A DNA stretch of 64,000 bases from Marinobacter nitratireducens. GTDB taxonomy: Bacteria; Pseudomonadota; Gammaproteobacteria; Pseudomonadales; Oleiphilaceae. A program made the position numbers and the translations under genes. Below are positions 41,950 to 57,521 of the stretch, piece after piece. The notes under the pieces were generated by a model, which was given only the letters and a program-made list of their open reading frames with translations, searched no databases and was not told the origin of the DNA. Numbering within the stretch: position 1 is the first letter of the stretch; each line of letters starts with the position of its first letter. Location of the stretch: NCBI RefSeq assembly GCF_000708045.1, contig NZ_ANIE01000002.1, positions 62,001 to 126,000 of the forward strand. The letters run 5' to 3'.

Positions 41950-41972
41950 GCCTGACTTCCATGGTAAGAAAC

Positions 41973-55441: not shown

Positions 55442-55571
55442 ATCATTGGTCGCGATAGCCCATTTGGGTCATTGTTTCCCGAGGAGAATCCTCGTAAACA
55501 TGTAGGTTGCATGTCTTGAATCGGGTAGTTGTTATGATCCGGGCGTACCTTTCGTCATATTCTGCCAATTG

Positions 55572-56600
55572 ATGCCGATGGCCGTTTTCGTCGTGATACG
55601 GGCATTCGGTTATACCTTGTTGGTCCGGTGTTGCAGGGCTGTTTCGCTGATTGGGGGGGCGGTGTGCCTGTTTGTCGCCGGCGTGGTATGCAGTGAGCCT
55701 GTCACAGAAGGCGAAACGAGAGATACGCTGGTCGTCCTGAAACAGGAAAGCGAGACGCACAGCGAATTCATGAAGGGGCTCTCAACGTGCTATCTCCCTG
55801 GGCAAGAGGCTGGCGCTCGGCTCAGGGTGGCTGGAATTGGTGAGTTAGAGCCCGAAGACGACCTGCGAGGTGTGCACAGTATTGTCGCGGTGGGCGTTGA
55901 GGCCACACAGTCTGTCATGGCCATAAAGGCGGGTCCTCCGATCATCAGCGCCATGATCCCGCGCGTGACAATTCAACACTTGTCGCCTGTCGGAAGGCTC
56001 GGACCAAGGATTCACAGTGTCTTTGTGCTTGATCAACCTTTGTCGCGACACCTATCTTTAGTGAGAAGCCTGCTACCGGATGCGAAGAATCTCGGTGTGA
56101 TTCTTGGGCCGAATACCGGACTCTATGAGGCTGAGCTGAACCGCGAAGCCAGCCTGCGCGGTTTTTCCATACAGTCAGGGCTGGTAACCACACGGCAGGA
56201 TTTGCCCGACGTCTTGCCCGGCATACTCGCCAGCAGTGATGCACTACTATTGTTGTACGACCCCGTGCTCACTGCCCCCAGTGGGATCAGGTTTGTTTTG
56301 TACTCTGCGTACCAGAAGCGTGTCCCCGTTTTTGGTTATTCCGAAGGGTATGTAAAAGCCGGTGCCCTGGCAGCTGTCTACTCTATGGCGACTGAGCTGG
56401 GTTGCCAGGTGGGTGAGTCCCTGGGGCAAAGCACCGGCTTCGCGCAGGGAACAACGACAGATGGTGGCATCAAGGTGAACTACCCGGGTTTCTTCCGCTA
56501 CAAAATGAATCACTCGGTCGCCCGTTCGCTTTCGCGGGTGACAGGTAAGCTGCCGGATGGACAGCCGATGACAGGGGAGCCGGGCAGTGAAAGTCGCTGA
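55572..56600 (+). CDS. COG2984-like periplasmic substrate-binding protein, without transporter genes
   Basis: About 342 aa from ATG 55572 (TTG 55569 and ATG 55578 are alternatives). A hydrophobic N-terminus (AVSLIGGAVCLFVAGVVCS) looks like a signal peptide, perhaps lipoprotein-like. The rest is like the ABC_sub_bind family: VVLKQESETHSEFMKGL, VGVEATQSVMAIKAGPPIISAM, RIHSVFVLDQPLSRHLSLVRSLL and ALLLLYDPVLTAPSGIRF. There is no permease or ATPase nearby. The gene overlaps the sensor fragment by 14 bp, so it may have fed that sensor. Confidence 0.72.
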   Translation: MPMAVFVVIRAFGYTLLVRCCRAVSLIGGAVCLFVAGVVCSEPVTEGETRDTLVVLKQESETHSEFMKGLSTCYLPGQEAGARLRVAGIGELEPEDDLRGVHSIVAVGVEATQSVMAIKAGPPIISAMIPRVTIQHLSPVGRLGPRIHSVFVLDQPLSRHLSLVRSLLPDAKNLGVILGPNTGLYEAELNREASLRGFSIQSGLVTTRQDLPDVLPGILASSDALLLLYDPVLTAPSGIRFVLYSAYQKRVPVFGYSEGYVKAGALAAVYSMATELGCQVGESLGQSTGFAQGTTTDGGIKVNYPGFFRYKMNHSVARSLSRVTGKLPDGQPMTGEPGSESR

Positions 56601-56865
56601 GTTTGGTCTATCGAGCATTCGGGCCCAGATAATTATTGGTGGTCTGCTTCCGCTCTTGCTGGTGGCTGCTATTTTCAGCGTCCTGGTCGGTAGTATCGGC
56701 CTCCGGGACAAGCAGGAGTCCATCGAGAGCCAGGCCGGGCTTATTGTCGACAACCTTGCGCAGGCGGGGGAGTACTACCTGTTCTCTGGTGATCAGGACG
56801 TGTTGCAAGAGCTGGTTGCCGGTGCGCTGGAATCATCGCCAGCCTTATCATCCCGATCGCAATGA
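56587..56865 (+). pseudogene. Truncated sensor-kinase N-terminus
   Basis: GTG 56587 with GGGGAG 8 nt upstream gives 92 aa: IRAQIIIGGLLPLLLVAAIFSVLVGSIGL, a first transmembrane helix of BarA-like hybrid kinases, then a short periplasmic segment (SIESQAGLIVDNLAQAGEYYLFSGDQDVLQELV). It breaks at about 56840 and reads an unrelated tail (SSPALSSRSQ). HAMP, HisKA and HATPase parts are all missing. The next frame is the rhombosortase, so an internal deletion joined the two genes. It overlaps the substrate-binding gene by 14 bp, as an intact kinase would. Confidence 0.65.
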
Positions 56866-56882
56866 GCGTCATTGCGATCGGG
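56852..56882. repeat. Perfect 14-bp inverted repeat at the sensor/rhombosortase junction
   Basis: CCCGATCGCAATGA (56852-56865) and TCATTGCGATCGGG (56869-56882) with loop GCG. It covers the stop of the sensor fragment and the ATG of the rhombosortase (56862-56864). Confidence 0.9.
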
Positions 56883-57401
56883 ATCGGTATGTTTCACTCC
56901 GAGACGGCCGAGGCTCTGCAATACAAATCTGATTTCGTGCAGGGTGGGGAAGTGTGGCGTCTGGTGACGGCGCACTTTGTCCATCTGGACTGGGTTCATC
57001 TTCTCCTGAATCTCGGAGGCCTGTGGCTTGTCTGGCTGATTGTCGGGAGCTCATTCAGCAATGATCAGTGGCTGCTGCTGATCGTTTTGATGGGGTGCGC
57101 GATTACGTTTGGTCTCTGGCTCTGGGCGCCAGAAGTCAGCTGGTACGTCGGGCTGTCTGGATTACTCTATGGCATGCTCGCGACCGGCCTCGTGAGGCAA
57201 GCAAGGCGTATGAAATCCCTGTCCGTGTTATTGCTGGTCACGATCCTGATAAAAACAGCAATCGATGGCCTATACGTGCCACTGAGCGTGACGACGCTGA
57301 CGAACCATCAGATTGTCGTTGAGGCCCATGTTTTGGGCATTGCGGCCGGGATGATATTCAGCGTGGTGTATCGGCTGGTGTGTCCGGAGAAGGGTAGATA
57401 A
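56862..57401 (+). CDS. rrtA: Rhombosortase (rhomboid-family protease of GlyGly-CTERM proteins), start probably truncated
   Basis: 179 aa with five to six hydrophobic helices. WRLVTAHFVHLDWVHLLLNLGGLW is the rhombosortase signature. Ser99 in VGLSGLLYG and His156 in VEAHVLG form the catalytic pair. The first helix is cut: the reading frame continues upstream without any ATG, GTG or TTG to a stop at 56790, and the missing helix residues (IIASLIIPIA) lie before the ATG. No Shine-Dalgarno stands before it, and the start is inside a 14-bp stem. It would cleave GlyGly-CTERM proteins; none is seen here. Confidence 0.78.
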   Translation: MSVIAIGIGMFHSETAEALQYKSDFVQGGEVWRLVTAHFVHLDWVHLLLNLGGLWLVWLIVGSSFSNDQWLLLIVLMGCAITFGLWLWAPEVSWYVGLSGLLYGMLATGLVRQARRMKSLSVLLLVTILIKTAIDGLYVPLSVTTLTNHQIVVEAHVLGIAAGMIFSVVYRLVCPEKGR

Positions 57402-57436
57402 AACAAAGCCCGGACCTGTCGGCCCGGGCTTTGTTT
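57401..57436. terminator. Bidirectional terminator rrtA / tRNA-Pro
   Basis: AAACAAAGCCCGG (57401-57413) pairs perfectly with CCGGGCTTTGTTT (57424-57436), 13 bp with a 10-nt loop. It serves the convergent rhombosortase and tRNA-Pro transcripts. Confidence 0.85.
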
Positions 57437-57444
57437 GGGGAATC

Positions 57445-57521
57445 TGGTCGGGACGGTAGGATTTGAACCTACGACCCCCTGCACCCCATGCAGGTGCGCT
57501 ACCAAGCTGCGCTACGCCCCG
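57445..57521 (-). tRNA. tRNA-Pro (GGG)
   Basis: A 77-nt cloverleaf on the minus strand with acceptor CGGGGCG/CGTCCCG, anticodon loop ATGGGGT (anticodon GGG), T arm GGTTCAAATCC, discriminator A and encoded CCA (57445-57447). The 113 bp upstream to 57634 hold no clear gene. Confidence 0.96.

Follow-up and report, generated by a model that had tools for sequence, protein, structure and literature searches.

A probable deletion scar joining a sensor-kinase fragment to a rhombosortase gene in Marinobacter nitratireducens, with a hairpin over the rhombosortase start codon

Dedicated pairs of rhombosortase and GlyGly-CTERM protein have been described (Haft and Varghese 2011, PMC3237569; Gadwal et al. 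2018, PMC6219818). The former places the catalytic Ser in TM4, a His in TM6 within the motif AHxxGxxxG and the motif WRxxS/T in loop 1, and reports a further His, four residues after the catalytic Ser (SGxLH), in virtually all rhombosortases. On the side of expression control, a review of translational coupling (PMC12548453) describes downstream genes that are silenced by a stem over the start and opened by the ribosomes of the upstream gene, or that are translated by reinitiation after the upstream stop. Our literature search found no paper with both rhombosortase and translational coupling.

The window analysed here, a stretch of 64,000 nucleotides (G000:C2:62001-126000), lies inside contig C2 of a 3.89-Mb genome of M. 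nitratireducens (22 contigs, 99.92% complete); all positions below are those of the window. It is like the rhombosortase/GlyGly-CTERM systems in that its rhomboid protease passes the TIGR03902 cut-off, and unlike these pairs in apparently lacking the substrate gene, in having Tyr for the His, and in that the tail of the relatives' protein goes unscored by TIGR03501. It is also like the hairpin-inhibited, translationally coupled pairs treated in PMC12548453, having an ATGA overlap and a stable stem that holds the downstream start; unlike the known coupled pairs, its arrangement was apparently made by a deletion.

A sensor-kinase fragment and a probable 18-kb deletion

The features of the locus are as follows.

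55569-56600, plus strand: open frame for an ABC-transporter-type substrate-binding protein (PF04392), directly before the kinase and overlapping the kinase fragment by 14 bases
56587-56865, plus strand: kinase-fragment ORF, 92 aa, GTG start, TGA stop at 56863-56865, with homology to full-length BarA-like hybrid kinases
56587-56835, plus strand: kinase-derived part of about 83 codons, covering the N-terminus, the first hydrophobic stretch and the beginning of what follows; delimited to within a few bases by aligning the protein with those of four relatives
56793-56861, plus strand: open stretch in the rhombosortase frame, ending just before its ATG and itself free of ATG, GTG, TTG and CTG
56836-56840, plus strand: approximate deletion junction, placed from the alignments on both sides and the relatives' coordinates; rhombosortase sequence follows from about 56841
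56850-56884, plus strand: perfect 16-bp inverted repeat with a 3-base loop, its left arm holding the rhombosortase ATG and the kinase-fragment TGA
56862-57401, plus strand: rhombosortase ORF, 179 aa, ATG start, assigned by TIGR03902, motifs and a GlpG-like predicted fold
57401-57436, plus strand: inverted repeat with 13-bp arms after the rhombosortase, from the inverted-repeat listing; terminator-like in our reading
57445-57521, minus strand: tRNA-Pro (ggg), found on the right side in all five loci scanned

The 92-aa fragment was 57-70% identical, over about 81-84 residues, to the N-termini of four kinases of the genus with open frames of 920-952 codons, and the similarity ended past these residues in the protein alignment. 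The fragment matched no Pfam family at E 0.01, so that it is without HisKA, HATPase and receiver domains, and it matched BarA (NF008318) at E 0.002 only. The kinase of one relative, G056, is like BarA-type hybrid sensor kinases in carrying HAMP, HisKA, HATPase and receiver domains and a sub-threshold Hpt; BarA was its best match at 462 bits, but under the BarA cut-off of 890. Unlike the BarA-type kinases (NF008318), the window keeps only about 83 codons. A preliminary description of this DNA had proposed a sensor N-terminus of about 85 recognisable residues; its BarA-like start and the point at which the match stops were borne out, and the length is here refined to about 83 codons.

Among 124 genomes of the genus (the genome of the window, G000, included), close orthologs of the kinase N-terminus were found in four others, G056, G019 (Marinobacter flavimaris LMG 23834), G083 (Marinobacter MAG Kmv20) and G014, each with a homolog of the substrate-binding protein directly 5' of the kinase, and close orthologs of the rhombosortase (52-55% identity) in the first three. 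In these three both genes are whole. The kinase and rhombosortase of G056 (C1:1928693 and C1:1910059) both lie on the minus strand and those of G019 (C12:401474 and C12:419888) both on the plus strand, about 18.1 kb apart with six complete genes between them. The order in both genomes is regulator gene, substrate-binding protein, hybrid kinase, TonB-dependent receptor, response regulator (on the other strand), PPIC-type isomerase, secreted protein of about 610 aa, giant protein of about 2550 aa, protein of about 765 aa, rhombosortase and tRNA-Pro, followed by a gene that we take to be glutamate-synthase-like. G083 keeps this order for the genes of the cluster; they are divided between two contigs, and the genes to their left are different. 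The protein families of the cluster were each tested on one representative.

In the window, the substrate-binding protein, kinase codons 1 to about 83 and the rhombosortase stand in succession and the rest is absent; the gene coordinates of G056 and G019 put the missing DNA at about 18.1 kb. Of this stretch, four regions were searched for in G000: the giant, the 609-aa protein, the tail protein of 765 aa and the kinase remainder. The giant and the 609-aa protein each gave no match in G000 and were each found in 3 of the 5 genomes examined. For the tail protein, G000 yielded only one 60-residue match in the TSP3-region repeat, and a model of the sorting tail found nothing there better than E 0.88; the same model scored 2.4e-19 to 6.5e-26 on the three relatives, by construction, since it was made from them. 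The remaining 838 residues of the kinase, present as 64-72% identical copies in the three relatives, have no ortholog in G000, the best match being a 32% paralog, a different kinase with a 973-codon frame. A second copy of the kinase or of the island elsewhere in G000 was thus rejected for the searched parts, and the full-length copy of the joined kinase that the preliminary description had named as a possible objection was not found. The draft state of the genome, with its 22 contigs, might suggest that the junction is an assembly artefact; a false join, however, would leave the 18 kb elsewhere, and the four searched regions lack an ortholog in an assembly of this completeness, while the flanks keep the order of the relatives (substrate-binding protein on the left, tRNA-Pro and the next gene on the right), and we regard an artefact as very improbable.

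Taken from the aligned sequences, these data support a deletion that joined the sensor kinase at about codon 83 to the start region of the rhombosortase, and the deletion itself appears clear. Since both end genes are truncated here and whole in three relatives, loss is the simpler direction; that it was one event is what we infer. The nearest orthologs of the two remaining pieces are 50-68% identical over the aligned codons, and with no close relative among the 124 genomes the deletion can neither be dated nor be demonstrated to be single. An internal deletion fusing kinase and rhombosortase had been proposed beforehand, and the comparison with other Marinobacter genomes that it called for gave full-length genes in three and the short arrangement in none of them; the two genes are not neighbours there, however, and the loss exceeds the earlier claim, taking about 18.1 kb with six complete genes, the probable substrate included.

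That substrate would be the 765-aa protein, which contains a choice-of-anchor U domain; its C-terminus consists of a Gly run and RFD, followed by a hydrophobic stretch and then Arg-rich residues. As judged from these residues the tail is of sorting type, and the protein is likely the dedicated substrate of the rhombosortase. TIGR03501 exceeded its cut-off in none of four genomes (G000 and the three relatives), with one sub-threshold match in G083 and no match in G000. As a search for remaining substrates this was uninformative, since the relatives' tails were missed too.

The surface-protein cluster (L065/L066, L067/L068, L069/L070) is uncommon, the tail protein being full-length in only 3 of the 124 genus genomes; its response regulator is of LuxR type and its rhombosortase a variant. 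In G014 (G014:C58:106747-114503, L071) the kinase, receptor and regulator are kept, followed by a 1745-aa protein and other genes before tRNA-Pro, so that the content of the locus differs in at least two ways. Two of 293 genomes sampled, from another family of the same order (L118/L119 and L120/L121), carry a homologous giant of about 2976 aa (36% identity) with a protein of about 578 aa, isomerase and regulator. No rhombosortase match was detected in the 35 kb read from each. Next to these genes lies a 272-274-aa protein whose tail, VPLPAWALVLL... in G368, is of another kind and possibly also serves sorting; this could point to the same machine working with a different anchor.

The rhombosortase and its start codon

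The 179-aa product is a rhomboid by Pfam and scores 135.6 bits with TIGR03902 (cut-off 84; model positions 2-152 of 154). Alignments place the catalytic-type Ser99 in GLSG, His156 in AHxxGxxxG and the WRxxT motif at W32-T36. The His four residues after the catalytic Ser is absent, the window and its three orthologs reading SGLLY with Tyr103 (57168-57170). Among 40 readable loci, the window group included, this position is H in 28, Y in 8, F in 3 and Q in 1 (44 rows minus L018 and L020, where the pattern was misplaced, and the repeats L074 = L006 and L075 = L007); with Y, F or Q in other rhombosortase loci the His hallmark is not universal, and the window protein was filed as a variant since the curated TIGR03902 still accepts SGLLY. 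The AlphaFold model (mean pLDDT 82.3) forms its first helix only at residues 2-11 and 13-19, with pLDDT 60 and 73, and a structure search of the PDB with this model returned GlpG in the first 34 ranks, with a TM-score of 0.68 at rank 1. The predicted fold thus resembles that of GlpG, and its first helix is short and modelled at lower confidence.

The 23 codons in frame before the ATG contain no ATG, GTG, TTG or CTG; ATC, a rare start in table 11, is present. The best 19-residue Kyte-Doolittle mean of the first hydrophobic segment is 1.06 from the ATG and 2.50 with the upstream codons, and the corresponding values in the relatives are 1.77-2.04 from GTG in all three and 1.71 from its ATG in G056. 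The preliminary description had placed the missing helix residues in this startless frame: the 23 codons do extend the hydrophobic segment, but in our reading no more than about the final 7 seem to come from the rhombosortase (S-L-I-I-P-I-A-M, compared with S-L-W-V-P-A-T-M in G083).

The N-terminus of the rhombosortase was likely, not certainly, lost and TM1 clipped, as far as start positions indicate. In the relatives a longer start, GTG, lies 44-47 residues before the GE.WRL motif and overlaps the stop of the substrate gene by 4-11 bases, a distance that fits most rhombosortases: the first in-frame ATG falls 43-57 residues before the motif in 30 of 38 other rhombosortase loci, and in the remaining eight at 21, 22, 39, 41, 71 and 73, with none within 75 residues in two. 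The removal of the N-terminus, as proposed earlier, agrees with these counts; its uncertainty comes from the window ATG, 28 residues before the motif, which is conserved in all three relatives, where it is possibly an internal Met. If this conserved ATG were the true start in all four genomes, no residues would have been lost, the upstream gene would merely have been exchanged, the kinase fragment taking the place of the substrate gene, and the enzyme would be intact and hairpin-gated. The conservation of both the ATG and the hairpin over it, and the poor conservation of the 16-19 codons between the relatives' GTG and ATG, speak for such a start, but it would stand only 28 residues from the motif against the distances given above for the other loci and for the relatives' GTG, it leaves the window TM1 weakly hydrophobic, and it disregards the overlap of the GTG with the substrate gene's stop; we hold it to be unlikely.

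The hairpin over the ATG

The hairpin over the rhombosortase ATG is new, going beyond what the preliminary description had observed. The window region 56840-56900 folds at -30.4 kcal/mol (z -6.5), and the same region in G056, G019 and G083 at -28.7, -31.3 and -30.8 kcal/mol (z -7.2, -5.2 and -5.3, respectively), no shuffle folding as low in any of the four genomes (60-61-base folds). Twenty Markov versions of the 64 kb gave arms of at most 12; besides the ATG hairpin, the real window holds an arm of 16 at 41970 and two arms of 14, each flanked by A or T like a terminator. In G019, the ATG hairpin is the only stem of at least 12 bp (loop 3-9, up to 3 G-U) in the 22.5 kb scanned. The three relatives share one register, with the stem starting 8 bases before the ATG, and two of its pairs are changed on both sides; this covariation fails its shuffle control, 70 of 500 shuffles reaching 2 pairs, three sequences being too few. 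The window hairpin is shifted in register by about 4-5 bases and made largely of other letters, which indicates that the stem over the ATG, not the sequence, was kept.

A stem of at least 14 bp near the start was found in 4 of 42 distinct rhombosortase loci (44 rows minus two repeats of the same gene, recounted with checked anchors), these four being the window and its three orthologs; the other 38 had none, so that a general rhombosortase feature was rejected. Stems of 11 bp occur in L028 and L078, and near the start folding energies of -24 to -26 kcal/mol per 44 nt are reached by L023, L028, L031 and L032 without a stem of at least 14 bp. Allowing up to 3 mismatches, the assembly contains the window hairpin sequence only once (control matches, 0); a repeated genomic element or a protein-binding palindrome was rejected on this single place and on the difference from the relatives. 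A palindrome made by the deletion was likewise rejected, as the relatives have their own hairpin at the same place.

Its origin can be read in two ways: a masked ATG may have been selected for, or template switching may keep the two arms of the inverted repeat matched. According to PMC8794818, template switching can create perfect stems and compensatory changes. The hairpin may have nothing to do with translation, being either an intragenic attenuator or mRNA stabiliser between the substrate and enzyme genes of the relatives, or a by-product of template switching, which could explain the perfect stem of the window with its shifted register. The failed covariation control fits with this, and so does TTTTTGTT, which directly follows the hairpin in G083 (L070:1043-1086, reverse strand); the window stem, too, scored as terminator-like, though the scan gave 3 such sites against a shuffle average of 2.2. 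This T-run is, however, absent in G056 and G019, and a strong stem over the same ATG in all four orthologs, which in G019 has no equal in the stretch scanned, is hard to obtain by mutation alone. We give a hairpin unrelated to translation a substantial but minor chance, and a weak attenuator role is possible. The hairpin of G083 with its TTTTTGTT resembles an intrinsic terminator inside the rhombosortase gene.

Expression and present role of the rhombosortase

The overlap of the rhombosortase ATG with the fragment's TGA, noted before, was confirmed as ATGA between the ORFs 56587-56865 and 56862-57401. No Shine-Dalgarno-like purine run was evident by eye before 56862. Given this, the lack of an upstream in-frame ATG, GTG or TTG, and the ATG overlapping the TGA, rhombosortase expression would most plausibly need ribosomes coming off the kinase fragment, and the hairpin over the ATG, which the preliminary description did not report, makes such coupling more plausible. 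Ribosomes would translate the kinase fragment, stop at the TGA and melt the hairpin, and the 179-aa frame, startable only at the hairpin Met, would be translated, if at all, by those ribosomes. An ATGA arises in one of three junction phases, so that it may be luck and need not have been selected. With the rhombosortase frame open as far back as 56793, and with a strong hairpin beyond, a frameshift might instead yield a kinase-rhombosortase fusion in which the startless codons restore the helix; the kinase-frame codons before the hairpin, though, showed no X XXY YYZ heptamer, and the first TM of the kinase would presumably orient the fused TM1 oppositely, by what we assume of rhomboid and sensor topology, which leaves this fusion scarcely credible.

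Both remaining frames are still open. With the topology assumed, dN/dS on the window branch is 0.12 for the kinase fragment and 0.19 for the rhombosortase, not different from other branches, and omega = 1 fits worse (2dlnL 4.1 and 15.9, respectively). The open frames and low ratios may leave room for continued function, and the low ratios may reflect only the time before the deletion, because synonymous sites are saturated; for the same reason, and with the topology assumed, the codon-model test for post-deletion decay had no power.

We propose that the deletion removed the remainder of the kinase, six genes including the likely dedicated substrate, and the rhombosortase's own upstream start region. 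The clipped TM1 and the loss of the probable substrate lead us to read the enzyme as an orphan, and the locus is probably the scar of an approximately 18.1-kb deletion in which the rhombosortase is a relic with little or no sorting role, and with coupled translation if any. As read from its sequence it is most likely a weakly expressed orphan relic whose predicted catalytic residues are intact. It is decidedly unlikely, in our judgement, that the conserved hairpin masks the start and ties the enzyme to translation of the upstream gene, normally the substrate, that the deletion rewired this control to the sensor fragment, and that the orphan protease now acts on other, unrecognised targets.

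Deletion scars are ordinary, and the start hairpin common to four orthologs is the part that deserves specialist attention. The scar described here is a clean one with both halves readable, in which a surface-protein cluster was lost and its sorting enzyme left behind. The hairpin at the ATG, present in four diverged genomes with different letters, offers a directly testable case of a processing enzyme that may be tied to its substrate, and the same case could show what happens once the substrate is deleted.
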